Notes under the pieces: generated by a model
Seen by the model: only the letters and a program-made list of their open reading frames with translations
What the model was told of the DNA's origin: nothing
Databases searched by the model: none
In this document: positions 20,130 through 36,472 of the stretch, piece by piece
How the letters are laid out: each line of letters opens with the position of its first letter
How positions within the stretch are numbered: the first letter of the stretch is position 1
Source of the DNA: a virus
Direction: 5' to 3' (one strand)
Virus record (IMG/VR): IMGVR_UViG_3300022602_000038
Span: 1-64,000 of that record
DNA length: 64,000 bases
Made by a program: the position numbers and the translations under genes

Positions 20130-20675
20130 GTGCTTACCTTTAAACAATTTACAGAAAATTGGACTAGTAAAACCCAAAAAATGAACGGGAAAAACTTATC
20201 CATATTTAATACTGCAAAGATTAATCCTGAAGCAATGTATTATAGGTTTTATTACGTAGACGAAACTCAAAAGTGGGTACCTAAGGCACACGGTTGGGAT
20301 ATTTATTCGGTTACAATTAAGGGGTCAGAAATTATAACGAGTGTTTTAAATTTTAATAAAGCCATTCTTAGCGGTATCACACCTTACTTCCTTTATGTAG
20401 AAAATTTAAGTATGTCAGAAATCGTATTTGTTAAAATAGCAAATGTACGGGGAATTATAAAAGGTTATATTTTTGTAGAAGCAGAAAAACTAGACAATAT
20501 ACCTAATATGGACACTTTTAAAGAACTTAGACTTAAATTACCTGAAGGATGTCCAGCAAAAGATATAGAACAAAACCTATATAAACACTTTATTCCTTTT
20601 GTACATAATAAAGTAAAGATAAAAGAAGTATATAGAAAGGGATCAGAAGAAGCTGGTATAGACATTGATATATGA
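20130..20675 (+). CDS. Tag-bearing protein A: CTS-like N-terminus, GSEEAGIDIDI C-terminus
   Basis: 181 residues from GTG. The first residues MLTFKQFTENW resemble the T4 capsid-targeting peptide MKTYQEFI-x-E. The C-terminus is VYRKGSEEAGIDIDI, the shortest single-module carrier of the motif repeated in the next genes. The body (KINPEAMYYRFYYVDETQKW, later LPEGCPAKDIEQNLYKHF) resembles the second module of the 20672 protein (INPKKTYYLFQQHK), so it is a stand-alone module. The stop overlaps the next ATG (ATGA at 20672). Likely a packaged internal virion protein, by inference. Confidence 0.7.
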   Translation: MLTFKQFTENWTSKTQKMNGKNLSIFNTAKINPEAMYYRFYYVDETQKWVPKAHGWDIYSVTIKGSEIITSVLNFNKAILSGITPYFLYVENLSMSEIVFVKIANVRGIIKGYIFVEAEKLDNIPNMDTFKELRLKLPEGCPAKDIEQNLYKHFIPFVHNKVKIKEVYRKGSEEAGIDIDI

Positions 20676-23600
20676 GAAACCAATATAAAACTCTATTTGA
20701 AGTTTACTCTGAAAATGTACATAGTGTGGCGCCTAGTAGTATTTTAGATAAAGTAGACGTGGACGTGGCACATATAAAAGCTAGAAAAGTTACCGATCCA
20801 TGGTCATCAGAGTTTATAAAGTACAAAGATTATTATAAAGAATATTTAATTAACAAAGCTAAAAAAGAAGGCTTCTTTGATAACCAAAGTAGAATTGATG
20901 TAGATAGTATGTGGAAAGAGTATAGTGAATTAACAGAAGAAAGAATGAGAGAGGAGCTTATTGATAATTTAGGAGATGAAGCTGTAGACTATGTAATAGA
21001 ACAAGATGAGTTAGATGAAGAAGTAGATGAAAATTTTTATCAAGACTTTAAAAGAAACTATTTACCTAAAATAAAAGCTGAATACGAAAAGAAGTATAAT
21101 GATATAATGGGGAAGCCAAGTAAAGAGCTTGGTATAGATATTGATATAGAAGAAAGCAAAGAGAAACCATCTGCAAGTAAAATAATGGCTGATGCACCGC
21201 CTCCATTAAAGATAATAAAAAATGTCAGTATAAACCCTAAAAAAACATATTATTTATTTCAACAACACAAGGATACAGACAAGGATAGCTATAGGTGGTA
21301 TTTTGTAACGTGGCAGTATGGTACGGATATAAATAGTGCTTTAGAACAATTGGAAAGAAAGAGAGATTTTTTATATAAAAGCGACACACTAAATGTGGTA
21401 CCGTTAGTAGAAGATTGTAATGATGTGTTTCTTTTTGTTTATTCTAATTCTAAAAAAGCGGATTCTATTAACTCCCCATCTTTATATATAAGTAAAGAGG
21501 TAATTAATAAAGTTTATGCAGTCCCTAACGACCCAAGAACACTCGATTCAAATTTAGTAAAGTGTATTGCAGAAATAAACAAAACAACTAACGATAAAAC
21601 AGGCATGGTAGCTCTTCAAGGGTTTAAGAGAAAAGTAGAGAAAGCATTACAAACTGAATTAAAAACAAAAAGTATACTTAAAAAGGGTTCTGAAGAAGCT
21701 GGTATAGAAATTGATATAGAAGAAGCTTACCAACATGTAAAGTCTGAATCGAGAGACCCATCCGATTCACCCGCTTTAGTTAAAGGATTACGCAGCAAGG
21801 TAGTAAGCCTGTGTGATAGTATATTAGGTATAAAAGATGCTAGAGTGGTTAATGATATTATAAGATACTTGGAAGAAGTGGTAGGTCCTAGTTTAAGTTA
21901 TGATGGCTATGCAGACGGGGTAATGCAGAAGTACGTAAGCAGATATATAAATAAAAATCTTAATTCGGGTAGGAAAGTTGATCAACATTTGTTAGATAAT
22001 ATGAATCTTGTGTATGGTTACTGGTCACCAAAAATTAAAAAAGCTATCGCTGATAGCTTTAAGCAAATGTATAAAGAATATAATGCATGGAAAAAAACAC
22101 AAGAAGTACTTAAAAAAGGGTCTGAAGAAGCTGGCATGGAGATTGATATAGAAGAAAGTAATAATGATTTTGATTACGAGTGGGAAACTTTAATAACAAG
22201 TTATCCAGATTCTAATATTTTTATTGAATGGCTATATAAGCATTTAATAGAAGAAGGCAGTATAGATGTAGATAATGATTTAGAGTGTGATATTAAACCT
22301 GGTTTTGAATCTATTCAAATATGGTATAATAGTAGAATAGAAAATGCTTCTTATGACGGTAATAATATTGAAGAAAATATAAAAAGTGAAATAAAGAAGC
22401 TTTATAATAGCCCGGAATACAAAAACTATAAAAAGATTTATAAAAAAAGACAAGACGTGCTTAAAAAAGGCTCTAAAGAAGCTGGTATAGACATTGATAT
22501 AGAAGAGGCTACTTCATGGGATGAATGGGAAATTAATTTTGATATTTTTAAACTTACAGATAAAATTAAAGACTGGAAATGTGTAAATGATTTTTATAAA
22601 TGGCTATATTTAAAGGTAGTTAATAATCCAGATTTTGATCAAGGGCATTGGGACATGTATCCAGAGGAACTTGATAATATAACTAAAAAACTTAATCACT
22701 ACTACCAACATGTATACTCTGAGAATATGTTTAATGTAGCGCCCTTACATATAAAGGATTATATTTATCAAAAGAGTGTTCAATTAGGTGGAACAACACA
22801 TGACGTTTATGTAAAAGTAAAAAATAAATTTCCAGAAGTTGCTAAAGATGCAGAAAAAGTTACAATAGCCCTTATTAAAAGATTTTACAATGAATTTAGA
22901 AAAACTAAAGAATATAAAAATTGTGTAAAAACCCAAGCAGTATACAAAAAAGGGTCTGAAGAAGCTGGTATAGACATTGATATAGAAGAAAACAATGAAC
23001 CTTATTCTGATTTAAATTCATCGTATCATATTTTTCCGTATTTTAAAGTTGTACATAATTGGAAAAATAAAGACGAGTTTACAGAATGGTTGTATAAAGA
23101 AATAGATATAGAGCCAGGTATTAATATAGACTCTAAAGCTGAAAATTGGACACACGCTCAAATGGTGGCTTGTTATATTGATGAACACTGCTACCTAACT
23201 CGTGATGATTACTATGAGGATACTACTGATGAGGATGAAGTTGATAGTTTAGCTTATGAAGATACTTTAAAATTGTTAAAGAAGTATTATAAAAAATTTA
23301 AAATATGGAAAAAAACACAAGACGTGCTTAAAAAAGGTTCTAAAGAAGCTGGCATGGAGATTGACATAGAAGAATCTAATAATAATAATATTCTATTAAA
23401 ACGTAGCAATAATGAACATGATTATGGGGATATATATAGTTTAGTTAAGCACTGGGAAGATGGAGATTTGTTTATAAAGTGGTTATCTGAACGAGTAGAT
23501 AACTGGCCAAGTCACAACAAAGATAATCCATTACAAGAATGGTGGGATAATACAGTTGATGAGTTTTCGAGACTAGATCCTAATCGTTATAACAGTAAAA

Positions 23601-23755
23601 AACGTACAGTTGAAGATAATATAGAATTAGCATTAACCTCTATAGAGTTCTCTTATGATGAGTTTGTTAATACTGATCATTATTTAAAGACAAAAGCTAC
23701 ACGAGATGTACTAAATAAAGGGTCAAAAGAAGCTGGAATAGAAATAGATATATGA
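20672..23755 (+). CDS. Tag-bearing polyprotein B, about seven modules
   Basis: 1027 residues. N-terminus MRNQYKTLFEVYSEN (LxE at 8-10). Junction motifs near residues 150-165, 336-352, 479-495, 594-612, 756-773, 883-900 and at the C-terminus; consensus KTQxVLKKGS(E/K)EAG(I/M)(D/E)IDI, followed by EE internally and by the stop at the end. Later modules are versions of one helical domain: a KxWxxxDxFxxWL start, a variable acidic middle and an ALxxxxxxYxxFxxxxxY end. Module 3 begins EEAYQHV, like the N-termini of separate proteins in the region. (I/L)xE-type junctions suggest processing by the prohead protease. No known enzyme motif seen. Confidence 0.75.
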   Translation: MRNQYKTLFEVYSENVHSVAPSSILDKVDVDVAHIKARKVTDPWSSEFIKYKDYYKEYLINKAKKEGFFDNQSRIDVDSMWKEYSELTEERMREELIDNLGDEAVDYVIEQDELDEEVDENFYQDFKRNYLPKIKAEYEKKYNDIMGKPSKELGIDIDIEESKEKPSASKIMADAPPPLKIIKNVSINPKKTYYLFQQHKDTDKDSYRWYFVTWQYGTDINSALEQLERKRDFLYKSDTLNVVPLVEDCNDVFLFVYSNSKKADSINSPSLYISKEVINKVYAVPNDPRTLDSNLVKCIAEINKTTNDKTGMVALQGFKRKVEKALQTELKTKSILKKGSEEAGIEIDIEEAYQHVKSESRDPSDSPALVKGLRSKVVSLCDSILGIKDARVVNDIIRYLEEVVGPSLSYDGYADGVMQKYVSRYINKNLNSGRKVDQHLLDNMNLVYGYWSPKIKKAIADSFKQMYKEYNAWKKTQEVLKKGSEEAGMEIDIEESNNDFDYEWETLITSYPDSNIFIEWLYKHLIEEGSIDVDNDLECDIKPGFESIQIWYNSRIENASYDGNNIEENIKSEIKKLYNSPEYKNYKKIYKKRQDVLKKGSKEAGIDIDIEEATSWDEWEINFDIFKLTDKIKDWKCVNDFYKWLYLKVVNNPDFDQGHWDMYPEELDNITKKLNHYYQHVYSENMFNVAPLHIKDYIYQKSVQLGGTTHDVYVKVKNKFPEVAKDAEKVTIALIKRFYNEFRKTKEYKNCVKTQAVYKKGSEEAGIDIDIEENNEPYSDLNSSYHIFPYFKVVHNWKNKDEFTEWLYKEIDIEPGINIDSKAENWTHAQMVACYIDEHCYLTRDDYYEDTTDEDEVDSLAYEDTLKLLKKYYKKFKIWKKTQDVLKKGSKEAGMEIDIEESNNNNILLKRSNNEHDYGDIYSLVKHWEDGDLFIKWLSERVDNWPSHNKDNPLQEWWDNTVDEFSRLDPNRYNSKKRTVEDNIELALTSIEFSYDEFVNTDHYLKTKATRDVLNKGSKEAGIEIDI

Positions 23756-26700
23756 AAAAATTAGATAAAAATATAGCTAAAAAATACAGTCAAATGTACG
23801 ATGAAGATACCTTTTCAAAAGTACCAGCAATACCTTATGATAAGAATTTAAAGTGTATTGAACTTATACGTACCTTTTGTAGAGGGGAGTATACTGTAGA
23901 TTTATCTGAAAAAACGTTGGGAGAACTAGTAGATGAGTTTTACGAATCATATGAACCAGGTGGAGAATTTGCAGAGTATGGGAACCCTTTTAATGAATTT
24001 AGCGAAGACTTTCCTACTAAAACAGAGTTTATTCAACATATTACAAATGGTCATGTAGTAAAAGGTATAAGAACAGAAGAGCAAGAGTTTTTAATGGCTA
24101 GAAAGGATCAAGAGCTACAAATGTATGAAGAGCTTGAACGACTAGAATCAGAAGAAGAATTGGAACCCGATCCTGAGTTTGAAATTATAAAGAATAAAAG
24201 AATAATTAGTATTAAAACAGCTCCTATCTTTAAAAAAGGATCAGAAGAAGCTGGTATGGAGATTGATATTGAAGAGGGGGTTAAGGAAGACTATAAAAAG
24301 TTCGATATTGAAATACCAAGTATAGGGGAGATAATTGATATTGATATGAAAGAGTTTGAGAAAATTTTTAAAAACACTCATAAAGACGAAATCGATTTTG
24401 CCCAGGTAGGTTGTGAAATAGTTAAAGATATAGATGTAAAAAATGAAATGTTGTATGTAATGCTAGGTAAACACGTATTTAATGAAGATACTTTGAGTTT
24501 TCTGAAAGACGAACAAATAACCTATACTCATAAACCTAAAATAAACACAGTATTTTATAGTCGGTCGCATAAAGGACCTATATTTGCTAGCCATTATTTT
24601 GATACAGGATTTAAAGGCGGTGGTATTGAATATTGGACATTAGTGCCTGATAAATCTCATTCACATTTGCCTTTAGTTACAGCTGTGCCTTTTAGTATTG
24701 GGGTAGATAATTGGGCTGAATATAAAAATTGGTTAGAAACTCAAAAAATATTTAAAAAAGGATCAGAAGAAGCTGGTATAGAGATTGATATAGAAGAAAG
24801 TAAAAAAACTAAAGACTTGTACAACACAACTGAAGTAATTAATAAAATAAAACAACGGTTTGGAACTTGTACTTATGCCTTCTGTAAATGGCTATACGAA
24901 GAAGATTTTGCTGATTTCGATTCAGATCTATCTCTTGAAGAAAATATACGAAGTATCTGGGAAAATATGGTTGAAAACGGTATAGATGGCGGTATGAGTA
25001 AAAGTGATTCTATAGAACAAGCTCAAAACTATCTTGATAGTAACATTGAAATGTTTGAAAATAGTAAAGCGTATAAAAATTGTTTAGAAATTCAAGCAGT
25101 ATACAAAAAAGGTTCTAAAGAAGCTGGTATGGAAATTGATATAGAAGAGAACGCTAAAGGCAAATCTAGTAAAAAACAAAGCTCTTTTTATTTAGATAAA
25201 AAAAGCGTGTTTGACCCGCTTCATCCGGAAGATCCAAGTAATTTATATAATATAATAAAACAAGAACTTGGTGATTTTACTGATACATTTTACAAATGGC
25301 TAAGTACAAATACAGTACGAACACATCTTGGGACATTTTTTTTTAATCCATATGAACATTTAGTATTTAATTTGAAGGATTTATGGGATGATCTTTTCAG
25401 TAAGGACTATATTGCTATTTGTGAAGACGGTATAGATAAAAAGGAAGCAGAAAAAATGTGCTTAAAAACAGCACTAAAAGACCTTGAGTCTATTTTTAAA
25501 CAATTTAGAAAAAGTAAAGAATATGAAATTTGTTTAAAAAAAATAATATCCAAGAAAACCGAACCAATATATAAAAAAGGTTCTGAAGAAGCTGGTATAG
25601 ACATTGATATAGAAGAAAATGCTAAAGGCAAATCTAGTAAAAAACAGAGCTTATCTGCTTTAGATAAAAAAAGTGTATTTGCTCCGAACGATCCGAAAGA
25701 TCCAAGTAATTTATATAATATAATAAAACAAGAACTTGGTGATTGTGCTTATACATTCTACAAATGGTTAGGCGCAAGTGCAATTCAAACTTATAGCGGT
25801 GTAACTGCTTGGTCTCCAGAAGAAACTTTTGAACAGAATTTGGAGGATTTATGGGATGATCTTTTTATAAGTGGTTATCTTTACACAGTTAAAGATGGTA
25901 CAGATGAAAAAACAGCAGAAAAAATATGTTTACAATCAGCATTAAAAGAACTTAGGTCTTGGTTTAGAGAGTTTAGAAAAAGTAAAGAATATAAAAATTA
26001 TGTAAAAACCCAAGCAGTATACAAAAAAGGGTCTAAAGAAGCTGGTATGGAAATTGATATAGAAGAAAATGCTAAAAGCAAATCTAGTAAAAAACAAATC
26101 TTAGCCGATTTAGAAAAAAAATTTAAGTTTATTGACCCGTATAATCCGGAAGACCCAATTAATTTATATAGTATATTACAACAAGAATTTGGTGCTTGTG
26201 CTGATTCATTTTTCAAAGGAATTGGTTGGCATTATTTAGACTCTTTTGAAGAGAATTTGGAGTACTTATGGTATGTAGCTTTTGTAGAGGACTACAATGA
26301 GGCACTTGAAAAAGGTATGGATGAAGAGGAAGCAAAAAAGAAGTGCTTTAAATTAGCACTGTATTTTCTTGAGATAGATTATTTTAAGAAATTTAGAGAA
26401 AGTAAAGAATATGAAATTTGTTTAAAAACCCAAGCAGTATTAAAGAAAGGCTCTAAAGAAGCTGGTATGGAGATTGATATAGAAGAAAATGCTGAAGGCA
26501 AAACTAGTAAAAAACAAATCTTAACCGATTTAGAAAAAAAATTTAAACTTGTTGACCCGATTTGGCCGGAAGATCCAATTAATTTATATAATATATTACG
26601 ACAAGAATTTGGTGCTTGTGCTGATTCATTTTTCAAAGGGATTAAAAAAATCAAAAACTATTGGGGGTATAGAGAACCCTCTGAAGATTTTGAAGAGAAT

Positions 26701-27318
26701 TTGTATTTTTTATGGAATATAGTTTTTATAGAAGACTATACTAAGGCCCTTATAAAAACAGAGCACTTAGGTACAAATGAAAAAGAAAAAGAGGAAATAC
26801 AAAAGAAATGCTTTAAATCAGCACTAAGAAATCTTGAGATAAACTATTTTAGTGAATTTAGAAAAAGTGAAATATATAAAAATTGTGTAAAAACCCAAGC
26901 AGTATACAAAAAAGGGTCTGAAGAAGCTGGTATGGAGATTGATATAGAAGAAAATGCTAAAGACTTCATGCCTGTAGGTGCTGGTGATACGTTTTATTTT
27001 ACTAAAAAATATATAGGTATTGAAAATAAAAACGAGATATTTGACTTTATAAAGTTTTTAGATACTTACATTAAACCTAAACAGCGTAAAACAGACGCTA
27101 ATACAGTTGATAGTATGTATGAGCAAATGACTTGGGATGCAGCTGAAAAGCTACCAAGCACTACTTCAAAAGGATATTATAGAGTACAAGATGAAGAACT
27201 AGCATTATGTCGTAAAAAAATTATACAACAGCTTTGGGAAAAGTATGAACTATGGCAAAAAGCGCAAGAAGTGCTTAAAAAAGGTTCCAAAGAAGCCGGG
27301 GTAGACATTGACATATAA
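23752..27318 (+). CDS. Tag-bearing polyprotein C, about eight modules
   Basis: 1188 residues. The N-terminus MKKLDKNIAKKYSQMYDED lacks the usual MRxQYK form. Junction motifs near residues 159-175, 333-349, 449-466, 606-622, 756-772, 896-913, 1049-1067 and the C-terminus (GSKEAGVDIDI). Modules 4-7, bounded by the third to seventh junctions, are tandem duplicates opening IDIEENAK(G/S)KSSKKQ and sharing PEDPxNLYNIxxQE(L/F)G. Module 2 (EDYKKFDIEIPSIGEI) is paralogous to the last module of the 30347 protein. ATGA overlap with B; TAATG overlap with the next gene. Likely expressed as one late operon. Confidence 0.75.
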   Translation: MKKLDKNIAKKYSQMYDEDTFSKVPAIPYDKNLKCIELIRTFCRGEYTVDLSEKTLGELVDEFYESYEPGGEFAEYGNPFNEFSEDFPTKTEFIQHITNGHVVKGIRTEEQEFLMARKDQELQMYEELERLESEEELEPDPEFEIIKNKRIISIKTAPIFKKGSEEAGMEIDIEEGVKEDYKKFDIEIPSIGEIIDIDMKEFEKIFKNTHKDEIDFAQVGCEIVKDIDVKNEMLYVMLGKHVFNEDTLSFLKDEQITYTHKPKINTVFYSRSHKGPIFASHYFDTGFKGGGIEYWTLVPDKSHSHLPLVTAVPFSIGVDNWAEYKNWLETQKIFKKGSEEAGIEIDIEESKKTKDLYNTTEVINKIKQRFGTCTYAFCKWLYEEDFADFDSDLSLEENIRSIWENMVENGIDGGMSKSDSIEQAQNYLDSNIEMFENSKAYKNCLEIQAVYKKGSKEAGMEIDIEENAKGKSSKKQSSFYLDKKSVFDPLHPEDPSNLYNIIKQELGDFTDTFYKWLSTNTVRTHLGTFFFNPYEHLVFNLKDLWDDLFSKDYIAICEDGIDKKEAEKMCLKTALKDLESIFKQFRKSKEYEICLKKIISKKTEPIYKKGSEEAGIDIDIEENAKGKSSKKQSLSALDKKSVFAPNDPKDPSNLYNIIKQELGDCAYTFYKWLGASAIQTYSGVTAWSPEETFEQNLEDLWDDLFISGYLYTVKDGTDEKTAEKICLQSALKELRSWFREFRKSKEYKNYVKTQAVYKKGSKEAGMEIDIEENAKSKSSKKQILADLEKKFKFIDPYNPEDPINLYSILQQEFGACADSFFKGIGWHYLDSFEENLEYLWYVAFVEDYNEALEKGMDEEEAKKKCFKLALYFLEIDYFKKFRESKEYEICLKTQAVLKKGSKEAGMEIDIEENAEGKTSKKQILTDLEKKFKLVDPIWPEDPINLYNILRQEFGACADSFFKGIKKIKNYWGYREPSEDFEENLYFLWNIVFIEDYTKALIKTEHLGTNEKEKEEIQKKCFKSALRNLEINYFSEFRKSEIYKNCVKTQAVYKKGSEEAGMEIDIEENAKDFMPVGAGDTFYFTKKYIGIENKNEIFDFIKFLDTYIKPKQRKTDANTVDSMYEQMTWDAAEKLPSTTSKGYYRVQDEELALCRKKIIQQLWEKYELWQKAQEVLKKGSKEAGVDIDI

Positions 27319-27539: not shown

Positions 27540-27551
27540 TACTAGATTACA

Positions 27552-27557: not shown

Positions 27558-27564
27558 ATACAAT

Positions 27565-28911
27565 ATGAAGAATGATCAAGCTTTAAGGTTACTTGCTGAA
27601 CAGTATCAACAAGTACAGGTCAATGAAATTTTAATAGAAGGTTTCAACAGAGACCTTGAAGCTTTTGAAGCATATCTTATTAAAGAAGGCCTTTGGGACA
27701 CCATTAAACAGAAAGGTGCTGCTTTAGCATCTGGTGCAAAGAGCGCTTTAGTGCAGCCTTTAATTAAAGCTATCATGAATAAGATCGCTCAAAGCGATCC
27801 AGAAGGTTTTAAAAAGATTCAAGCAGCAGCTGCTTCTGGTGAAAGTGGTATACAACAATTATTAAATAGCCCTGAGGTTAAGCAACAACAGCAACAAATC
27901 AGTCAAGACGTTGCTGCTACAACTGAAAGTATTGATGATGGTTTATATAGCGAAGTGTTTGAAGAGGCAATCGGTTATTTAATTGAAGCTAGAGTACTAA
28001 GCAATGACCCTCGTAATGTTCGCCGTAGAGAGTTAGCTGCACAAAAGAGAGCTGCTTCTCAGCAACCAGCTTCAAATAAAGCTGCTCCAGGTAAACAACC
28101 TCCAGTGCTTAAGCCAAGTGCAAAACCAGCAGCTCCAGCAACTCCATCAGCTAAACCCACTACACCTACTACTGCTCAACCTCCAGCAGCACAAGGTGGT
28201 TTTATTCAAAAAGCTTATGCATGGATGAAACAACATCCTAAACTAACAGCCGCGGGTGGTTTGGCTTTAATGGCCGCACTTGGTGTCGCTACATTAGGTG
28301 CTGGTGGTATTGTTCCTTTAATTGCTTCAGTAGCACATGGTGCTGCAGCAGGTGCTGCAGGTGCTGGTGTTGTTGGTGGTGCTTTAAAGGGTGGTGCTAA
28401 TGTAGTAGGTCAAATGTCTAAAGGCGGTAAGGTAGACTGGAAACAGGCTGGTAAAGCTGCTTTACAAGGAGCTAAAGCTGGTGCTAAAGCTGGTGCTGTT
28501 GCCGGTGGTGTAGGTGCTGCATTAGGTGGACTTATTGCTGGTGGTGTTAAGATCGCACATGGATTGCAATCAGTTTTACAAGGCGGTAGTGGTACAGTAT
28601 CATTAAACGATTTACATCAAGCAACTCAATCTGCTCAACAAGTTGGTACACATAAGAGTGCTTTAAGTCAGGAAGTTGATCAGATTAATGCAGATTGTGA
28701 CGCTAAAGCAAATGCAATGCAATCATTAGGTCTTAAAAGCGCTACAATTTATGGCGATGGTAATGGAGCATTCCACATACAAGGTAATGACGGTATGGTT
28801 CACAACTTTAATGCCCAAGGTGTTGAAATTGGTAAATCCGCCGCTAGTGCAGCTCAGTCAGCTGCTACTTCAGCACCTAATGCTGCTGGAAAATTAGATA
28901 CAGGATTTTAA
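27565..28911 (+). CDS. Probable internal virion protein with glycine-zipper membrane segment
   Basis: 448 residues. N-terminus MKNDQALRLLAEQYQQV places LAE then Q-Y like the other CTS-like starts. Residues 30-110 are helical (EGLWDTIKQKGAALASGAKS). Residues 155-210 are an Ala/Pro/Lys-rich linker. Residues 220-330 contain Gly/Ala-rich hydrophobic stretches (GGLALMAALGVATLGAGG, AAGAAGAGVVGGALKGG) like membrane-inserting ejection proteins. No KKGSEEAG tag. By composition it could form or line a pore during DNA and protein delivery, or be a scaffold; neither is proven. Confidence 0.6.
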   Translation: MKNDQALRLLAEQYQQVQVNEILIEGFNRDLEAFEAYLIKEGLWDTIKQKGAALASGAKSALVQPLIKAIMNKIAQSDPEGFKKIQAAAASGESGIQQLLNSPEVKQQQQQISQDVAATTESIDDGLYSEVFEEAIGYLIEARVLSNDPRNVRRRELAAQKRAASQQPASNKAAPGKQPPVLKPSAKPAAPATPSAKPTTPTTAQPPAAQGGFIQKAYAWMKQHPKLTAAGGLALMAALGVATLGAGGIVPLIASVAHGAAAGAAGAGVVGGALKGGANVVGQMSKGGKVDWKQAGKAALQGAKAGAKAGAVAGGVGAALGGLIAGGVKIAHGLQSVLQGGSGTVSLNDLHQATQSAQQVGTHKSALSQEVDQINADCDAKANAMQSLGLKSATIYGDGNGAFHIQGNDGMVHNFNAQGVEIGKSAASAAQSAATSAPNAAGKLDTGF

Positions 28912-28922
28912 ATAAAAGTTAA

Positions 28923-29054: not shown

Positions 29055-29055
29055 C

Positions 29056-29083
29056 TTGAACTTTTATTCTTGTGTACCATAAT
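29056..29083 (+). promoter_or_regulatory. Early-type sigma70-like promoter
   Basis: TTGAAC-16 nt-CATAAT. The -10 context TACCATAATATGGTGTATG almost repeats that of the 35101 gene (TACCATAATACGGTGTTATG), supporting a shared promoter type. Confidence 0.55.
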
Positions 29084-29090
29084 ATGGTGT

Positions 29091-29393
29091 ATGAGAGCTT
29101 ATTCAGCCATCCCAGGTCTAATCACCCACAAAGTTTGGTTACATGATCCAATTGCTCCATCTGTTTATTTAAAAGAAAACGGATATAAGGAATGGTGGTT
29201 AAACAATTTATTGCACCGAGAAGATGGTCCAGCAATTGAGCATATTAACGGGGATAGGGAATACTATCTAAATGGTACACGACATAGAACTGATGGTCCA
29301 GCTATTATTTTTAAAAATAAGACCTATTTTGAGTACTGGGTTGACGGAAAACAGTTAACTGAACAAGAATTTAAACACAATTATCCTGTATAA
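29091..29393 (+). CDS. Phage HREDGPA-repeat protein
   Basis: 100 residues from ATG 29091. The longer reading from 29070 would start inside the promoter. It contains two units of the phage repeat L/R-HR-x-DGPA: LLHREDGPAIEHINGD and TRHRTDGPAI, each followed by an aromatic YYLNG/YWVDG strand. These MORN-like beta repeats are common in phages and lack a known function. Confidence 0.65.
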   Translation: MRAYSAIPGLITHKVWLHDPIAPSVYLKENGYKEWWLNNLLHREDGPAIEHINGDREYYLNGTRHRTDGPAIIFKNKTYFEYWVDGKQLTEQEFKHNYPV

Positions 29394-29474
29394 AATCCCA
29401 ATTACACTTTATTATATCCGTTAATATGTATCTATACGTACTAACGCTCACTGTGGAATACTAGAAATACTAAT

Positions 29475-29663: not shown

Positions 29664-29664
29664 C

Positions 29665-29862: not shown

Positions 29863-30161
29863 AAGACTATCTTCGTTATTTAATTGATGAGGGATTTGCG
29901 GATATTAGGTACTGGTTTGATGAAAATGATAAAATAGAAGGACGTATATCCACTATTAAAGAGTATGAGCCATTATACCTTGAATCAGATGAAGAGGATT
30001 ATAAAGGAACTTTACTTTTGTGGCGGGATTATGGTAAATGCTATACCTATAAAACTACAAGAGAATTTTTTGTTAACTATGGTAAGAGGTGTTTAAATGA
30101 AAGTCAAGCTCTCTTACAATCAAATAAATGGATAAGAGAAATAAAAGAAGCATACCGTTAA
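29859..30161 (+). CDS. Hypothetical protein
   Basis: 100 residues starting at a GTG that overlaps the previous stop (GTGA). It is acidic and aromatic (DEGFADIRYWFDENDKIEGR). No family recognised. Likely co-translated with the AbrB-like protein. Confidence 0.5.
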   Translation: MKDYLRYLIDEGFADIRYWFDENDKIEGRISTIKEYEPLYLESDEEDYKGTLLLWRDYGKCYTYKTTREFFVNYGKRCLNESQALLQSNKWIREIKEAYR

Positions 30162-30170
30162 ACCTATACT

Positions 30171-30302
30171 ATGAAGATAATAAAGCACTTAACATATCAG
30201 GAACCATTACCTTCAACTACTTCAGGCAAGATATGGTATTATGCTAAATGGTTATTGTTAGGAGTTATTATAGGTTTCCTCTTTGGGTGTATCTTTTTAT
30301 AA
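30171..30302 (+). CDS. Single-span membrane microprotein
   Basis: 43 residues: polar N-terminus (MKIIKHLTYQEPLPSTTSGK), then one hydrophobic helix WLLLGVIIGFLFGCIFL. ATG 9 bp after the previous stop. A frame reading from 30248 through this gene into the next protein was rejected in favour of this ORF plus GTG 30347. Confidence 0.5.
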   Translation: MKIIKHLTYQEPLPSTTSGKIWYYAKWLLLGVIIGFLFGCIFL

Positions 30303-30335
30303 GCTATATAGATTGGATTCAACTAGTACTTCAGA

Positions 30336-30341
30336 TAAGTA
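30336..30341 (+). promoter_or_regulatory. Late-type promoter core (GATAAGTA)
   Basis: TAAGTA ends 5 nt before GTG 30347, which supports that start for polyprotein D. Confidence 0.45.
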
Positions 30342-30346
30342 ATAAG

Positions 30347-31816
30347 GTGCGCAACCAATACAAACTTTTAGCAGAAAAATACATTCAGATTAAAGAATGG
30401 GTAAACAAAGAAGATGAATACTTAGCAAATATTGATTTTGATAAATCACCTGAAAGCATTCAAAATAAAATTATTGATTTAGTGATAGAGCCTGAAACGA
30501 TTGAGAGTTTTAAAGTTGAGGATTACTGGGTAGATGATCATTTGCTATGTTACGGGGTTATCATAAACGATTTAAAGCTTAGTTTTTGGTGGCAAGACGA
30601 CCCTGAAGATACAGATGAAGCGGATGATCAACCACCTAAAAATTCAATGTATGTTGTGTTAGATAAAATGTGTAATAATGGTAATCTTCAATTAAAAGAC
30701 CACCCTAAATTACAAAAAGAGGTAGCAAATTTATTAAAAGTACATTTTATTAGAGATGATTCTCTTATAAAGAGCCGCTTTGAAAAAAAGAAAATCGATC
30801 CAATATATAAAAAAGGTTCTGAAGAAGCTGGTATAGAGATTGATATAGAAGAAGCTTACCAGCAGGTAATATCTGAAGAGAGGAATCCAGATGATCCACC
30901 TGCTTTAGTTAATTTTTACAACGGGGAATTAGTAGAATTATTAGGTAAAATACTAGGTATAAAAGATGCTAGAGAAGTTAATAATATTATAAAATTTTTG
31001 GAAGAGGTGGTAGGGCCTAGTCTAGGTTATCAGGACTATGCAGGCGCTGCAATGCAAAGGTACGTAAACGAATATATAGATAAAAATCTTAACGGTAAAG
31101 ATTTTTTGGATCCGCGTATATACGATTATATAAATATTAATTATAATTGGTCGTCAAAACCGCCAAAAATTAAAAAAGCTATCGCTGATAGCTTTAAGCA
31201 AATGTACAAAGAATATACTGTGTGGAAAAAAACACAAGAAGTACTTAAAAAGGGTTCTGAAGAAGCTGGTATAGAGATTGATATAGAAGAAGGTGTTGAA
31301 GAAGACTATAAAAAATTCGATATTGAAATACCAAGGGTAGGAGATATTGCTCAAGTTAATCCGGAAGAGTGGGATAAAATTTATAAAAACACTTTTAAAA
31401 ACAAAACTCATTATACGAAATTTGGGACATTAGTAGTTACAGATATAGATGTAAAAAATGAAATGTTATATGTAGTACTAGGTAAATATAAAAAACAGGA
31501 ATCTACTTTAAATTTTTTAAAAGACGAACAAATAACCTATGATCATAAACCTAAAATAAATACTATATTTTATAGCCGATTTTATAAAGTACCTATACTT
31601 GTTAATAGTTACTATAGTGTAACACAATTAGATGGTGGTGAAGCTATTGAATATTGGTTATTATGTCCCGATAAATCTCAACCGCACTTACCTTTAGCTA
31701 CCACTGTACCTTTTAGTGTCGGGGTAGATAATTGGTCTAAATATAAAAATTGGTTAAAAACTCAAAAAATACTTAAAAAGGGTTCTGAAGAAGCTGGTAT
31801 AGAGATTGACATATAA
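30347..31816 (+). CDS. Tag-bearing polyprotein D, three modules
   Basis: 489 residues from GTG 30347. This start gives MRNQYKLLAEKYIQI, the family N-terminus, and has a TAAGTA box; the upstream ATG 30248 would read through the previous small gene. Tags near residues 153-169, 300-315 and the C-terminus (KKGSEEAGIEIDI). Module 2 (EEAYQQVISEERNPDDPPALV, in two parts) is paralogous to module 3 of B, and module 3 (EDYKKFDIEIPRVGDI) to module 2 of C, so whole modules move between genes at the tag. A 30-plus-bp stretch around 31170-31205 is near-identical to 22040-22080 in B, which suggests recent recombination. Confidence 0.75.
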   Translation: MRNQYKLLAEKYIQIKEWVNKEDEYLANIDFDKSPESIQNKIIDLVIEPETIESFKVEDYWVDDHLLCYGVIINDLKLSFWWQDDPEDTDEADDQPPKNSMYVVLDKMCNNGNLQLKDHPKLQKEVANLLKVHFIRDDSLIKSRFEKKKIDPIYKKGSEEAGIEIDIEEAYQQVISEERNPDDPPALVNFYNGELVELLGKILGIKDAREVNNIIKFLEEVVGPSLGYQDYAGAAMQRYVNEYIDKNLNGKDFLDPRIYDYININYNWSSKPPKIKKAIADSFKQMYKEYTVWKKTQEVLKKGSEEAGIEIDIEEGVEEDYKKFDIEIPRVGDIAQVNPEEWDKIYKNTFKNKTHYTKFGTLVVTDIDVKNEMLYVVLGKYKKQESTLNFLKDEQITYDHKPKINTIFYSRFYKVPILVNSYYSVTQLDGGEAIEYWLLCPDKSQPHLPLATTVPFSVGVDNWSKYKNWLKTQKILKKGSEEAGIEIDI

Positions 31817-31823
31817 AAAATTT

Positions 31824-31994
31824 ATGAATTCATTAAGTGACTGGAAGAAAATGCCTCAAGAGCATTATACTGAATATAAAGGTCGCAGAATGAAAGTCAA
31901 AGAAGTAGTTGCCTTCTTAGAAGGAGAGCTTAAAAGAGTAGATGAACTATTAAAGCGCTCTGAAAAAGATAAACAAACAACTAACATAAAATGA
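31824..31994 (+). CDS. Hypothetical small protein
   Basis: 56 residues from ATG 31824, charged and helical (KVKEVVAFLEGELKRVDELL). A TTG at 31806, overlapping the end of D, would add TYKKF and give a CTS-like MTYKKFMNSL start; I cannot choose with certainty. It overlaps the next start (ATGA). Confidence 0.5.
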   Translation: MNSLSDWKKMPQEHYTEYKGRRMKVKEVVAFLEGELKRVDELLKRSEKDKQTTNIK

Positions 31995-32218
31995 ACAGAC
32001 AAGAACAACAAACCATTGATATGAAATGGATGTTAAAGTTTTACGGTTATAAGACCGAAGACAATCTAAAGTTTACAAAGGTAGTGGGTAAGAATATAGC
32101 CCGATCGGTTACCTTTCTAGAAGACTTTAAAGTAGCTATTAAGTACTTAAACAAAGAGACCAAGTTTACGTTCTCTGAAACTATGTTAATTGAGGACGGG
32201 TTTAATTGGATAGCATAA
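31991..32218 (+). CDS. Hypothetical small protein
   Basis: 75 residues, ATGA overlap with the preceding stop. Basic N-terminal half (DMKWMLKFYGYKTEDNLKFT), aromatic C-terminus DGFNWIA. Family unknown; part of a run of three small genes between polyprotein D and the 32470 gene. Confidence 0.5.
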   Translation: MNRQEQQTIDMKWMLKFYGYKTEDNLKFTKVVGKNIARSVTFLEDFKVAIKYLNKETKFTFSETMLIEDGFNWIA

Positions 32219-32227
32219 AAAAATAAC

Positions 32228-32416
32228 ATGACATTATTAGAAGCGTTTAAGCATGTGCAGTACTTTGCAGATAATTACTATCAAGGTAGTGTAACCAAAG
32301 CTGTTGCAGCCCTAGAAGCCTCTCACGAACATATAACAGATGATAGTAAAGAGGCACTAACTCTGTTTAAAGAGTGGCAACAAAGAATGAATAACTGGTT
32401 AGAGTATGTAAAATGA
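32228..32416 (+). CDS. Hypothetical small protein
   Basis: 62 residues, helical (LLEAFKHVQYFADNYYQGSV; LFKEWQQRMNNWLEYVK). Starts 9 bp after the previous gene. No recognised motif. Confidence 0.5.
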   Translation: MTLLEAFKHVQYFADNYYQGSVTKAVAALEASHEHITDDSKEALTLFKEWQQRMNNWLEYVK

Positions 32417-32454
32417 GACTTAAAGAATAGCTTGATAACACCTTAAGAATAGTA

Positions 32455-32460
32455 TAAGTA
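32455..32460 (+). promoter_or_regulatory. Late-type promoter core (TATAAGTA)
   Basis: TAAGTA ends 9 nt before ATG 32470. An early-type TTGATA (near 32433) also lies upstream, so the gene may have dual control. Confidence 0.45.
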
Positions 32461-32469
32461 TTAATATAT

Positions 32470-32823
32470 ATGCGCGACCAATATAAAGTTTTACTAGAAA
32501 GATATCAGGAAATGCCTTCTAATGAACCAGAAGAGGAACCAGAAATGGATATGGACGAAGAAGAAGGTAACCATGAACTAATAGTTAGATATGAATTTGT
32601 TATGGAAACAGATGATAAGGTGCTTAGTAAGCTTGATAGAATAGCTGCTCAAGTAGGAATAACAGAAGGGTATGATGGTGCTGAAATATATGGAGCTTTT
32701 AATCCACCTATGCGTCAGGTGTATTATGTCAGTAAAGATGTCAGGCAATTAGAGAAATTAGCTGATCTTATTGTTTCACAAATACCTGATATAGAGTTTG
32801 AAACTTACATACAAGAAGCGTAA
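32470..32823 (+). CDS. CTS-like protein, acidic N-terminal region
   Basis: 117 residues. N-terminus MRDQYKVLLERYQEM with LLE at the conserved LxE site. A Glu/Asp-rich stretch (EPEEEPEMDMDEEEG) precedes an alpha/beta domain (LIVRYEFVMETDDKVLSKLD; YVSKDVRQLEKLADLIVSQI). No C-terminal tag. The paired start with the tag proteins makes it a candidate packaged protein. No known family. Confidence 0.6.
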   Translation: MRDQYKVLLERYQEMPSNEPEEEPEMDMDEEEGNHELIVRYEFVMETDDKVLSKLDRIAAQVGITEGYDGAEIYGAFNPPMRQVYYVSKDVRQLEKLADLIVSQIPDIEFETYIQEA

Positions 32824-32829
32824 TAAAGT

Positions 32830-33189
32830 ATGCGCAACCGGTACAAAGTACTAGAAGAGGCATATGATAAAGTAAAAGAGAACAATTGGTGGGAGGAGCT
32901 TAAGAAAAAGAACCCTATTTTATATGCCAAGCACAGAGAGAAGTACAAGGCCAAGATGCGCGAGTACAACAAAAAGAGGTTAGATGCAATTAAACCAGAC
33001 AGAAAACCTAAACCAGAAAAGCCATCTGGTTTAGTGCACCCAACAGTGCCAAGAGCAATACAAAGTGCGCAATGGTGGAGGGATTTAAAAGCACAAAACC
33101 CAGAAGAATACGCTAGAAGAAACGCCATAAAGACTCAAAGAGCTAGAGAAAGAAGAGCACAGCTAAAGAACACCAATAAGGCAAGCTAA
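32830..33189 (+). CDS. CTS-like, strongly basic duplicated-motif protein
   Basis: 119 residues. N-terminus MRNRYKVLEEAYDKVKE (LEE then AY). The remainder is Lys/Arg-rich and contains the unit WWxxLKxxNPxxYAx(R/K) twice (WWEELKKKNPILYAKHREK and WWRDLKAQNPEEYARRNAI). The pattern suits a small HMG-like DNA-binding protein; if packaged, it could bind the genome in the head, as T4 basic internal proteins do. Starts 6 bp after the previous gene. Confidence 0.6.
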   Translation: MRNRYKVLEEAYDKVKENNWWEELKKKNPILYAKHREKYKAKMREYNKKRLDAIKPDRKPKPEKPSGLVHPTVPRAIQSAQWWRDLKAQNPEEYARRNAIKTQRARERRAQLKNTNKAS

Positions 33190-33293
33190 AAAAAGGTAAA
33201 AAAAAGGTAATATTTTGTTGCCTTTATACCTTAAAGTATGCATAATGTACGTATAATAAAAGAAACAATTACGTTTCATTATTATAATGTTCT

Positions 33294-33554
33294 ATGAAAG
33301 TTAAAAATCATCTATTATCAAAGAAATCTCTACCTATTGATACAACCATACCAGTACGTTATGCCACTCAACTTAAAAACAAGAAAGGTGAATGGTACTT
33401 TCCAGGTGGTACATTAACGCACGATTCAATGAGAAGTGCTAACAAGATACTAAAGGTTTATAGCCTTGGACCTAAATCGTTTAAGGATGCCGTTGGTAAG
33501 ACTGTTAGATTTATTAGATTTGACCCGGTTATTGTTAAAGAAGTAGAGCTATAA
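33294..33554 (+). CDS. Hypothetical small basic protein
   Basis: 86 residues, basic, beta-leaning (TIPVRYATQLKNKKGEWYFP, TVRFIRFDPVIVKEVEL). The 104-bp gap upstream holds a GTTGCC...TAAAGTATGCATAAT early-type promoter. A strong terminator follows. No family recognised. Confidence 0.55.
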   Translation: MKVKNHLLSKKSLPIDTTIPVRYATQLKNKKGEWYFPGGTLTHDSMRSANKILKVYSLGPKSFKDAVGKTVRFIRFDPVIVKEVEL

Positions 33555-33560
33555 CATATT

Positions 33561-33596
33561 AAAAGGATATATCTTAATTGGTATATCCTTTTTTTA
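33561..33596 (+). terminator. Rho-independent terminator
   Basis: AAAGGATATA-tcttaattgg-TATATCCTTTTTTT after the 33294 gene. Confidence 0.8.
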
Positions 33597-33610
33597 TTGT
33601 ATTATAATGA

Positions 33611-33616
33611 TAAGTA
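33611..33616 (+). promoter_or_regulatory. Late-type promoter core (GATAAGTA)
   Basis: TAAGTA ends 7 nt before ATG 33624, directly downstream of a terminator. Confidence 0.45.
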
Positions 33617-33623
33617 ATGGTAC

Positions 33624-34103
33624 ATGAGGAGTCAATATAAAGTTTTAGCAGAAGCTTATAATAGGGTACTTGAAACAAGTAAGCCTATTACAAAAGAAGA
33701 CACCTCTAATGAGTGGTACAATGATGCAAGAAAGCAGATAGATAGTTCCGACGGAGCCTACGGGTTTTCTTTCTTTAAAACAATAAAGGATTGGCCACAT
33801 CCAGATGAATTTATAAAGTTTTTATGTAAACACATATACGGTGTTAGTGTAGATTATTTTGAAATAGTTACGTATGGTATTGATAAATTCATTACTACGA
33901 TGTTTGGACATGAGGTAGACAGTATTGCAGGGGATATAAGAGATAAGAACCCGCATTTAAGTCATAAAGAGATAAATGATATTTCAGATAAATTAGCGGT
34001 AAAAAAACTAAAAGAATATTATAACCAATTTAAAACTTACCAAAAGGCTCAAGCAGTACTTAAAAAAGGTTCCGAAGAATCCGGAGTAGACATAGACATA
34101 TAA
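33624..34103 (+). CDS. Tag-bearing single-module protein E
   Basis: 159 residues. N-terminus MRSQYKVLAEAYNRVLE (LAE then AY); C-terminus KAQAVLKKGSEESGVDIDI. The body FFKTIKDWPHPDEFIKFLCK ... LKEYYNQFKTYQ is one copy of the helical module that is repeated in polyproteins B and C. It therefore shows the minimal unit: targeting-like peptide, one module, C-terminal tag. Four bp separate it from the next CTS-like gene. Confidence 0.72.
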   Translation: MRSQYKVLAEAYNRVLETSKPITKEDTSNEWYNDARKQIDSSDGAYGFSFFKTIKDWPHPDEFIKFLCKHIYGVSVDYFEIVTYGIDKFITTMFGHEVDSIAGDIRDKNPHLSHKEINDISDKLAVKKLKEYYNQFKTYQKAQAVLKKGSEESGVDIDI

Positions 34104-34107
34104 TAAC

Positions 34108-34560
34108 ATGAGAGACAACACTACCAAACTACTAGAAGAGGCATATAAAAAGGTTCAAGAAAGAGATGGACGTTTAGAGACATGGGTAAAAGGAGATCAA
34201 AATGAACGTAATGAATATAAAAACTACGTTCAAACCAAGTTTAATGGGGATTATAGAAAGGGTGCACAAGCGTGGGCTCAAATGAAGAACAGACCCACGG
34301 ATGATGTCTTTAATGATAAAGCACGTTTAGATGCATTTATGAAAGCAGACTTCGACTTCAACACATTTGATGAACAGGATTGGAACAATTATTGGCTCCT
34401 AGCACAGCACTGCGATAAAAATAGGGAATTTCAAAAGAAAGCACTAGACATTATCGAACAGTATCTTGGCACCGAACACAGTCATTATAAGTACCTTTAC
34501 GATAGATTATCCTTAGCACTGACCGGTAAACAGAAGTACGGCACACAGAATGCAAAATAA
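34108..34560 (+). CDS. CTS-like protein with DUF6624-like domain
   Basis: 150 residues. N-terminus MRDNTTKLLEEAYKKVQE (LEE then AY). The C-terminal block WLLAQHCDKNREFQKKALDI, YKYLYDRL and QKYGTQ matches DUF6624 (WLLVQHAD...FQ...YLTDRV...YGTQ), a family of unknown function. No KKGSEEAG tag. It faces the convergent ART gene, 16 bp away. Confidence 0.62.
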   Translation: MRDNTTKLLEEAYKKVQERDGRLETWVKGDQNERNEYKNYVQTKFNGDYRKGAQAWAQMKNRPTDDVFNDKARLDAFMKADFDFNTFDEQDWNNYWLLAQHCDKNREFQKKALDIIEQYLGTEHSHYKYLYDRLSLALTGKQKYGTQNAK

Positions 34561-34576
34561 GGACTATATAAGGGGA

Positions 34577-35044
34577 TTATCTTAGTTCACCTTCGTCAGC
34601 ATTATGATCCTTGATCCACTGTAACAGATCATTGCCCTTTAGTACATTATCAATAGTTATAGTTTCTGTGCTTGTGTAGTTGCCCGGTTCAATGCTACCC
34701 ATATTTTGATTAGAGATATGTTTATTAAACTTACCAGCATTTGTATGTATCACTAATAAAGCACCGTGTTTGGATATATCTGCACTAGAAGGGATATAGT
34801 TACCTTTGTTTAATTTTCTTTGTATCTGACTAGACAGTGCACAGTATACCGCTCTTGCCCCTTTTGAATCACTAGCAAACACCGCCGGTATGGCCTCTTT
34901 CTTATAAAGCTCTTGAGTAAACTTTCCTACAGTCGGAGTTAACCCCTGTGCAAGTATTGACGGAACATTATCAATTAGGGTACCGTGATACAGTCTAAGA
35001 CTATCATCAGTTGTATTTTCATAAAAGAAATCTCTAAACGTCAT
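34577..35044 (-). CDS. ADP-ribosyltransferase-like protein with CTS-like N-terminus
   Basis: 155 residues from ATG 35044. A longer reading to 35089 would begin upstream of the promoter box. The start MTFRDFFYEN resembles the T4 capsid-targeting peptide. LRLYHGTLIDNVPSILAQGL (Y19-H20-G-T) is the ART NAD-binding core, followed by AVFASD (56-59) and a possible catalytic E127 in TSTETITI. T4 Alt is a packaged ART that modifies host RNA polymerase at infection; this may be a functional analogue with a different ART subtype. It is the only minus-strand gene between 20 and 45 kb and has its own exact TATAAATA. Fold likely, target unknown. Confidence 0.68.
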   Translation of the reverse strand: MTFRDFFYENTTDDSLRLYHGTLIDNVPSILAQGLTPTVGKFTQELYKKEAIPAVFASDSKGARAVYCALSSQIQRKLNKGNYIPSSADISKHGALLVIHTNAGKFNKHISNQNMGSIEPGNYTSTETITIDNVLKGNDLLQWIKDHNADEGELR

Positions 35045-35049
35045 TATAG

Positions 35050-35057
35050 TATTTATA
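35050..35057 (-). promoter_or_regulatory. Exact T4-type late promoter TATAAATA (for ART gene)
   Basis: TATAAATA on the minus strand ends 5 nt before the ATG at 35044. Confidence 0.6.
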
Positions 35058-35064
35058 AAAAAGC

Positions 35065-35092
35065 TTGATATAATGCAATAAGTTACCATAAT
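35065..35092 (+). promoter_or_regulatory. Early-type sigma70-like promoter
   Basis: TTGATA-16 nt-CATAAT, 8 nt before ATG 35101; same downstream context as 29056-29083. Confidence 0.55.
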
Positions 35093-35100
35093 ACGGTGTT

Positions 35101-35250
35101 ATGAGTAACTTTAACTGTGAACAATATGTACTAGATAACTACGGTGAAGAAATAGTAGATATGTTCGTAGAGGAGTATGGTATATATGCTACAACATATC
35201 TATATAGCTTAACACAGGATGAAGTAGATGATGTATTAGCTAAGTACTAA
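35101..35250 (+). CDS. Small acidic protein
   Basis: 49 residues, acidic and aromatic (CEQYVLDNYGEEIVDMFVEE; SLTQDEVDDVLAKY). Well placed behind an early-type promoter. TAAGTA (35241-35246) for the next gene overlaps its last codons. No family. Confidence 0.55.
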   Translation: MSNFNCEQYVLDNYGEEIVDMFVEEYGIYATTYLYSLTQDEVDDVLAKY

Positions 35251-35251
35251 T

Positions 35252-36472
35252 ATGAGAGATAGGACTACCATACTACTAGAAGAGGCATATGAAAAGGTTA
35301 AAGAAGCGGCTATACTACCGGATGAATCTAAAGTTGATAAAGTAATGGATATATTGAACAAAGCACAACAGTTAAGACAGCAAGGATATAGTGTAAAAAA
35401 AACAGAACAAAATGCAATAAAAGAGTTGGCACTTCTTAATATAACCATTAAGGATTTGGAAGCGCCTATAGGCGCCGGGATTGTATACAATCCCATCAAT
35501 TTTTATGATACAGGAAGAATAGTAATTAGTAGAGATTTATTTAAAAGGTACATAGACTTGCCCTTTAGTAAAAGTAAGGTCGAGTGTAAACATAGAGAGA
35601 AAGTAATGAGACGATTAATCGGTCACGAATATATTCATCAATTGCAACTTATACGTAAATTAAAAAGGATCCATTCATTAAATAAGCCTGCAGGCATCTA
35701 TGATAATGAAGAAAGGATCAATTCATTAAAAAAGCTTGCAGGCATCTATAATAATGAAGTACGGTATCATAGCCGCCATTTTGATAATAAAGACCCTAAG
35801 TTTTATTATAACAATTATAACGAAATAATGACCTATGCCTATGAAATGGCAAAGAAGATATACGATAAGTTGAATATAGATAAGTACAAAGCAAGGAACT
35901 TTACCAAGGATCAAATTTACAAAGTAGTACAAAGGTTTATGCAAGTAGATAGATTTGCTACAAACAAAATGAGTAAAGAAATTGTTCAGCACCTCACCCC
36001 AGATAATGTAAAACGGTACTACAAGTACATTTACGATTATGTAGGACAGTTGTATGATGGTATATTAAAAGAACCAAACAATAAGGTAAGGGATTCATTA
36101 AACGAAAAGGGTGTTATAGTTAGTGGAAGATTTTATGGTCAAACGATACAAGACTATGTAGAGAGGTTTTTACCTAAGCATTTTAAAGAAAAAAATAAAG
36201 TCAACAAAGAAGAATTATTAGACTTTGTAAAGTATATTCAAGATAATATCTATAAACATATACCAGTTACTCGTACTAAATTCTCCAGTAAAAATGTATT
36301 ACCTTTATTGTATCTAGCAAATAAGATTATACTAAGTAATCCTAATTTAACTTCAAATGCAGTATATAAACAAGTATTAGAGTTCCTTTATAAAGAGTAC
36401 ACCTACCATAAGAAGACACAAGCAGTACTTAAGAAGGGCTCTAAAGAAGCAGGCATTGATATAGATATATAA
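35252..36472 (+). CDS. Tag-bearing HExxH metalloprotease-like protein F
   Basis: 406 residues. N-terminus MRDRTTILLEEAYEKVKE (LEE then AY); C-terminus KKTQAVLKKGSKEAGIDIDI. Residues 120-135 contain RRLIGHEYIHQLQLI, an HExxH zinc motif (H125-E126-H129). A later NEIMTYAYEMA could give the third ligand (Glu), as in gluzincins, but this is inferred. It carries both the CTS-like N-terminus and the C-terminal tag, so if the region encodes injected proteins this would be an injected protease. A perfect-length 48-bp tandem duplication lies within it. TAAGTA box 5 nt before the ATG. Confidence 0.7.
   Translation: MRDRTTILLEEAYEKVKEAAILPDESKVDKVMDILNKAQQLRQQGYSVKKTEQNAIKELALLNITIKDLEAPIGAGIVYNPINFYDTGRIVISRDLFKRYIDLPFSKSKVECKHREKVMRRLIGHEYIHQLQLIRKLKRIHSLNKPAGIYDNEERINSLKKLAGIYNNEVRYHSRHFDNKDPKFYYNNYNEIMTYAYEMAKKIYDKLNIDKYKARNFTKDQIYKVVQRFMQVDRFATNKMSKEIVQHLTPDNVKRYYKYIYDYVGQLYDGILKEPNNKVRDSLNEKGVIVSGRFYGQTIQDYVERFLPKHFKEKNKVNKEELLDFVKYIQDNIYKHIPVTRTKFSSKNVLPLLYLANKIILSNPNLTSNAVYKQVLEFLYKEYTYHKKTQAVLKKGSKEAGIDIDI
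35664..35759 (+). repeat. 48-bp in-frame tandem duplication
   Basis: Units 35664-35711 and 35712-35759 are near identical (AAAGGATC-A/C-ATTCATTAA...GGCATCTAT-A/G-ATAATGAAG) and encode 16-residue repeats with SLNKPAGIYDNEE and SLKKLAGIYNNEV. Recent, just after the HExxH motif. Confidence 0.85.

Follow-up and report, generated by a model that had tools for sequence, protein, structure and literature searches.

We analyzed a 64,000-nucleotide (nt) stretch of viral DNA (hereafter the window; positions 1 to 64,000 of the 140.7-kb IMG/VR record IMGVR_UViG_3300022602_000038), which contains a cluster of genes whose products share a C-terminal tag and three of which encode polyproteins made of tagged modules. 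An original prediction, made from the letters of the window, had listed six tagged proteins (starting at 20130, 20672, 23752, 30347, 33624 and 35252), all of which we found at these coordinates and named A to F. The tag was defined as GS(E/K)E(A/S)G(I/M/V)(D/E)IDI (as a peptide, KKGSEEAGIDIDI), and a six-frame scan of the window yielded 20 exact copies, all on the plus strand and all within the six genes, plus a 21st, variant copy, GKPSKELGIDIDIEE, at the first junction of the 20672-23755 gene. The stop codon immediately follows IDI in the six terminal copies (6/6), as had been predicted, and the 15 internal copies (6 in 20672, 7 in 23752 and 2 in 30347) are without exception followed by EE and then by A, S, N or G. 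Chance is excluded as the source of 21 copies of an 11-13-mer. The common segment exceeds the motif: all 21 modules share a last helix, xxWKKTQ(E/A)VLKKG, together with the tail.

Module borders were set by splitting after EE, which gave 7, 8 and 3 modules of 117-190 residues in the chains starting at 20672, 23752 and 30347, respectively (arrows below mark proposed cut sites; features are on the plus strand unless marked (-)). The start of polyprotein B (20672-23755) and the stop of A overlap in ATGA, and B opens with a targeting-like N-terminus, MRNQYKTLFE↓VY. Its module 1 (20672-21154) ends in GIDIDIEE↓ and has the variant tag GKPSKEL; module 2 (21155-21724) is followed by module 3 (21725-22156), which starts with ↓AYQHV, an apparent targeting-peptide remnant, and is 64% identical to D module 2. 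Modules 4 (22157-22507) and 5 (22508-22990) belong to an alpha-helical family, module 6 (22991-23374) resembles a module of another phage (L008/L009, see below), and module 7 (23375-23755) carries the terminal tag KGSKEAGIEIDI before the stop. Polyprotein C (23752-27318) comprises module 1 (23752-24276), the internal module 2 (24277-24798; 64% identical to the terminal D module 3), modules 3-7 of the alpha-helical family (24799-26952; starts 24799, 25150, 25618, 26068 and 26488), of which modules 4-7 are tandem copies of each other, and module 8 (26953-27318) with the terminal tag KGSKEAGVDIDI. Polyprotein D (30347-31816; modules starting at 30347, 30854 and 31292) begins with MRNQYKLLAE↓KY and ends in the tag; its GTG start sits within a longer ATG frame (30248) and is preferred because the targeting-like N-terminus begins there. 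The remaining three proteins carry the tag once: the single-module protein A (20130-20675; GTG start, MLTFKQFTE↓N, tag KGSEEAGIDIDI), the single-module protein E (33624-34103; MRSQYKVLAE↓AY, tag KGSEESGVDIDI) and protein F (35252-36472; MRDRTTILLEE↓AYEKV, a C-terminal helical module, tag KGSKEAGIDIDI). The predicted HExxH string of F is present as HEYIH at residue 125 and is the basis on which F is called a putative zincin, with no fold or family match backing the call.

The majority of the modules form one fast-evolving helical family, and the remainder look unrelated upstream of the last helix. Two module types each occur in two proteins at 64% identity, and one of them (C2/D3) is internal in C and terminal in D. 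An AlphaFold model of the alpha module (12 sequences) has four helices with a confident core and disordered last residues, so the tail end is probably exposed; a fold search with this model gave no match. The model of the beta module was uninformative (mean predicted local distance difference test score 34), a PDB sequence search returned no credible match, and in polyproteins B, C and D neither a Pfam domain above its curated cut-off nor a convincing PHROG domain was found. A match of C to phrog_1457 (lysis inhibition accessory) was rejected as a sum of weak repeats, no single stretch of which passes alone.

The C-terminal tag and the proposed cut site

The original prediction had argued that a terminal motif kept with no module behind it is no mere linker, and codon comparison bears this out. 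Among the six terminal copies, the proportion of synonymous differences (pS) was 0.718 against 0.712 for randomly drawn synonymous codons, the proportion of nonsynonymous differences (pN) was 0.086, and the 12 codons upstream of the tag had a pN of 0.42-0.47. Since the synonymous sites are saturated and the peptide is near-invariant, the tag is under protein-level selection and is no linker relic; by this measure, the terminal tag is old, and selection on the peptide maintains it. For the internal copies, pS was 0.291, far under the random value of 0.728, and pN was 0.045, the pattern of copies that are recent or homogenised. Gene conversion as the only cause of the motif's likeness is ruled out for the terminal copies by their pS and pN values.

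A profile built from the last 15 residues of the tag family was run on the 48,264 15-mers in the open reading frames (ORFs) of the 140.7-kb record. The tag family scored 45-50 bits and the best other 15-mer, VIRLAEQETGITIDI, 8.3 bits; the latter is likewise a C-terminus, that of a 201-residue protein (39236-39841) ending in EREVIRLAEQETGITIDI before the stop. This terminus (...REVIRLAEQETGITIDI-stop) is probably a diverged seventh copy of the tag, and the protein is a seventh candidate absent from the original prediction. The exact motif pattern had no match in viral and genome contigs beyond the window's own record. A relaxed KKGSEE pattern matched four contigs, whose ORFs were inspected and judged unrelated.

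Targeting-like peptides of the approximate form MRxQYKxLxE↓xY open the genes at 20672, 30347, 32470, 32830 and 33624, and variants open those at 27565, 34108, 35252 and 41891 and, outside the window, at 100804 and 139110 (-). The consensus spans about 10 residues, with L at position 8 and E at position 10. For comparison, T4 capsid-targeting sequences are 10-19 residues long, targeting of T4 IPIII mainly needs residues 4 and 7 and its processing residues 8 and 10, and the published cut motif of T4 gp21 is L/I-X-E (PMC9026906). Five of the genes with such N-termini lack the tag: 32470-32823 (MRDQYKVLLE↓RY), 32830-33189 (MRNRYKVLEE↓AY), 34108-34560 (MRDNTTKLLEE↓AYKKV), 41891-42268 (MQARSIKILQE↓AYEQV) and 27565-28911, which encodes a 448-residue protein starting with MKNDQALRLLAE↓QY. 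As a separate observation, a targeting-like N-terminus (..FNMILNE↓A) is found on a protein (record positions 139110-139649 (-); 17111-17650 (-) of locus L007) that matches part of a phage 'endolysin' family of 2185 positions (phrog_938).

The (L/I)-x-E sites at the junctions and in the targeting peptides match the motif of gp21 (S77). Two junctions read EE↓AYQHV and EE↓AYQQV after IDI, in the manner of the single-gene starts LLEE↓AYKKV, LLEE↓AYEKV and VLEE↓AYDKV. Because of this match, the internal EE most plausibly closes the cut site of the module that follows, and this accounts for the lack of EE at the C-termini. The earlier proposal that EE marks an IxE protease cut is thus strengthened by the homology of EE to the cut-site end in the targeting peptides of neighbouring genes, and further by related phages, which have LIE, LLE, LTE or LKE at this place.

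Relatives, module exchange and a late-promoter-like box

The phage appears to belong to the T4 superfamily: its terminase is 36% identical to those of Sinorhizobium phage phiM12-type phages, and tail tube and baseplate hub matches are present. A terminase search of IMG/VR returned 25 relatives, and a fragment of an identical terminase comes from the sample behind locus L022. One of them, G002 (terminase 80% identical), has a polyprotein that runs off the contig end, with the junctions KKGEDESGLKMTSLIE↓T, KKGEEETGLKMTGLLE↓Q and KKGSEQSGLNISALTE↓Q and the terminus KGSEVDLNLKGFNA, which has no cut site. Its tail sequence differs from that in the window and keeps the pattern KKG(S/E)(E/D)(E/Q)(S/T)GL. 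In G002, the last polyprotein module is also duplicated as a separate small gene (locus L035, 504-779 (-) and 772-1047 (-)), which starts at the position of the polyprotein's cut site. A protein with HR(E/L/T)DGPA(I) repeats (window 29070-29393; L035 504-779 (-)) also occurs as a polyprotein module in G002.

In another phage (L008/L009), a 349-nt segment matches module 6 of B with 90% identity at the DNA level, and no further DNA similarity to the record was reported. Homology between the two begins at the cut site (IEE↓NNEP in B, LKE↓NSEP in L008/L009) and ends near KKG. We consider L009 a different phage because its QueE-like protein shares 65% identity over 52 residues with its counterpart at the end of the 140.7-kb record. 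Across all fetched loci, frames with at least two KKG...(L/I)xE units were found only in these polyproteins. With tblastn, no relative of B, C, E or F turned up among isolate phages (50,697 phage records), and two-module alignments A1 and A2 found no relatives; strongly diverged analogues may occur in isolate phages. Elsewhere in the window, a 777-residue protein with a signal-like N-terminus (5690-8023) has a 97.9% identical counterpart in a relative with a terminase identity of only ~77%, which suggests recent exchange.

A late-promoter-like box, TAAGTAT, lies 14 nt before the start of A (20116-20122), and similar boxes begin 11-16 nt before 27565, 30347, 32470, 33624, 35252, 41891 and the terminase gene (47656). 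Over the whole record, TAAGTA is found upstream of the starts of 26 of 158 genes (4.5 expected from background frequency), and TAAGTA(T/A) lies mostly 11-25 nt before starts (for example, at window 20116, 47641 and 51643). The form TAA(A/G)TA precedes 10/12 targeting-peptide genes and 13/23 virion genes, against 3/26 on the replication side. It resembles the T4 late promoter, TATAAATA, of which TAAGTA(T/A) is apparently a variant. As the box is common to most cluster genes, the terminase gene and tail genes, the targeting-peptide genes would be expressed late together with the virion genes.

Proposed maturation and alternative explanations

In the reading that we regard as likely, the genes of this region code for internal (ejection-type) proteins that a T4-superfamily phage packages into its head and in part delivers as cleavable polyproteins; about 20 small proteins seem to be made for head packaging, most of them on three chains. 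In the proposed mechanism, the ~10-residue capsid-targeting peptide (MRxQYKxLxE) on each gene would bring the chain into the core of the prohead, where a T4-type prohead protease would cut after (L/I)xE and take off the targeting peptide. In three genes, the protease would also cut every I-E-E↓(A/S/N/G) junction, so that the three chains would give 18 mature modules of ~13-22 kDa each. The C-terminal helix and the GSxEAGxxIDI tail would remain on the mature modules once the targeting peptide is gone, and it is conceivable, if somewhat short of an even chance, that the tag acts as a signal for docking or retention, recognised by a component of the head or by some partner in the infected cell. 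The sequence itself shows repeats, a cut-site consensus, the kinship of EE with the end of the targeting-peptide cut site, module exchange with an edge at that site, selection on the tail and a common box; cleavage, packaging and ejection of the modules are what we infer. The polyproteins probably arose via deletions that fused adjacent tagged genes, so that a gene's IDI stop was joined into the LLEE of its neighbour; an overlap of the form ...GATATATGA persists in two gene pairs. Taken together, we tentatively propose a delivery system with one N-terminal targeting peptide, up to eight cargoes per chain released by a protease, a second, C-terminal sorting tag for retention or ejection, and cassettes, bounded by the cut site and the tag, that move between phages.

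Several points weigh against head packaging and cleavage as proposed. First, the targeting peptide of C is degenerate (MKKLDKNIAK↓KY), with Glu10 replaced by Lys at the expected P1 position. Second, the depletion of (L/I)xE within modules is weak (29 versus 38.2 expected, P 0.05; P 0.053 against other offsets; 170 versus 161 in other long proteins as a control), and (L/I)xE followed by a small residue persists within modules (LPEG, IEEG, IEEN, LEEN and IWEN). Third, mature internal modules would end in IDIEE rather than IDI. Fourth, several targeting-peptide genes lack the tag, which is therefore no general signal for packaging. Fifth, gene 5196 entered the 12-gene promoter test via the promoter scan, and without it the count is 9/11. 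At last, no S77 protease was found in the relatives. The search for a gp21-type protease suggested with the original prediction was likewise negative, with no S77 (gp21) or S78 protease in the 140.7-kb record; no portal or capsid gene was recognised there either, the portal search having been run without a positive control. Because portal and capsid are equally unrecognised, we take the missing protease as uninformative and not as negative, and the record and its 140-kb relative are probably fragments.

Among other explanations, the chains may be cut as proposed while the tag recruits or positions the head protease as an exosite instead of acting on the mature cargo. This would fit the placement of the tag directly before (L/I)xE whenever a module follows, both in the window and in G002; however, six single or last modules carry the tag with no cut site behind it, and we consider this role unlikely. 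Rather less likely, the chains stay unprocessed and act as multidomain proteins in the virion or the cytoplasm, with IDIEE as a flexible hinge between domains left over from gene fusion. Polyvalent phage proteins with 2-15 domains have been described (PMC5512222), and the tail is predicted to be disordered. On the other hand, (L/I)xE is kept at the junctions in three phages while the linker otherwise varies (IEE, LIE, LLE, LTE and LKE), EE at the junctions agrees with the cut site of the targeting peptides, and the tag is retained at saturated synonymous divergence even where no domain follows.

A further alternative, which we judge improbable, is processing by the zincin-like protein F or by some other metalloprotease that is packaged, acting inside the head or post-injection, and not by a gp21-type serine protease. 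F combines HEYIH with a targeting peptide and the tag, zincin-like metallopeptidases have been proposed to process phage polyvalent proteins (PMC5512222), and a serine head protease was found neither in the record nor in the relatives. Yet the same (L/I)xE stands on untagged targeting peptides and matches the gp21 motif, the absent protease is no evidence in a record without recognisable head genes, and the zincin call for F comes from the HExxH string. That the tail lacks a protein function and is instead a repeat at the DNA level, spreading modules through homologous recombination and kept uniform by gene conversion, is very improbable: the codons of the internal copies are alike well above random and modules are duplicated and exchanged, but this is largely refuted at the terminal copies by randomised synonymous codons with a near-invariant peptide, and the altered tail of G002 retains the KKG(S/E)(E/D)(E/Q)(S/T)GL pattern. 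A role of recombination for the internal copies is compatible with packaging of cleaved modules, and the two can coexist.

Known systems and neighbouring genes

Cleavage of polyproteins by a protease of the virus is characteristic of RNA viruses and retroviruses, and we found no description of DNA phage cargo made as a cut polyprotein in the literature searched. Capsid-targeting cargo of T4, which the original prediction did not name, is already known: the gp21-cut T4 proteins IPI-III and Alt share with the proteins described here a ~10-residue N-terminal targeting peptide with L/I at position 8 and E at position 10, the L/I-X-E cut motif and, as small proteins, divergent sequence (PMC9026906). 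An ADP-ribosyltransferase-like gene with a similar N-terminus lies within the cluster, in parallel to Alt. Unlike the T4 internal proteins, which are one protein per gene with no C-terminal tag described, the chains here hold up to eight proteins with a cut site at every junction and a selected tag; the C-terminal propeptide of Alt is removed, whereas the tag here has no cut site before the stop. The ejection (inner body) proteins of SPN3US and phiKZ, with gp245-type proteases, are packaged and matured by a head protease, as we propose here, and some are cut several times (PMC10052503). However, the motif there is A-X-E and all junctions here are (L/I)-x-E, and their extra cuts fall in long, mostly removed propeptides and not between retained modules. 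Polyvalent proteins (PMC5512222) are likewise multidomain, thought to be injected, and sometimes contain zincin-like metallopeptidases and ADP-ribosyltransferases; their domains are mostly recognisable enzymes, in contrast to the small unknown folds with one dominant helical family here, in which each module ends in the same tag and cut site. The polyprotein format and the C-terminal tag have no description in the literature searched. If the proposed system holds, a phage loads many different small proteins in equal amounts via one targeting signal, a second, C-terminal signal on packaged proteins becomes testable, and natural cut-site and tag cassettes become available for loading several proteins into T4-type heads.

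The ADP-ribosyltransferase-like protein (LYHGT...; 34577-35089 (-)) has an internal Met start, MTFRDFFYE↓N, and a weak PARP match (E=0.005, below the curated cut-off); it is possibly a packaged Alt-like enzyme, an analogue of Alt. No tRNA and no Rfam family was found in the window. Used as a synteny anchor, the MoxR-type AAA ATPase of the window found no relatives in IMG/VR contigs. The ATPase and an adjacent VWA/DUF2201 metallopeptidase-like protein (together 15960-19310) lie directly upstream of the cluster; rV5-like, N4-like and jumbo phages have ATPases of a similar kind.

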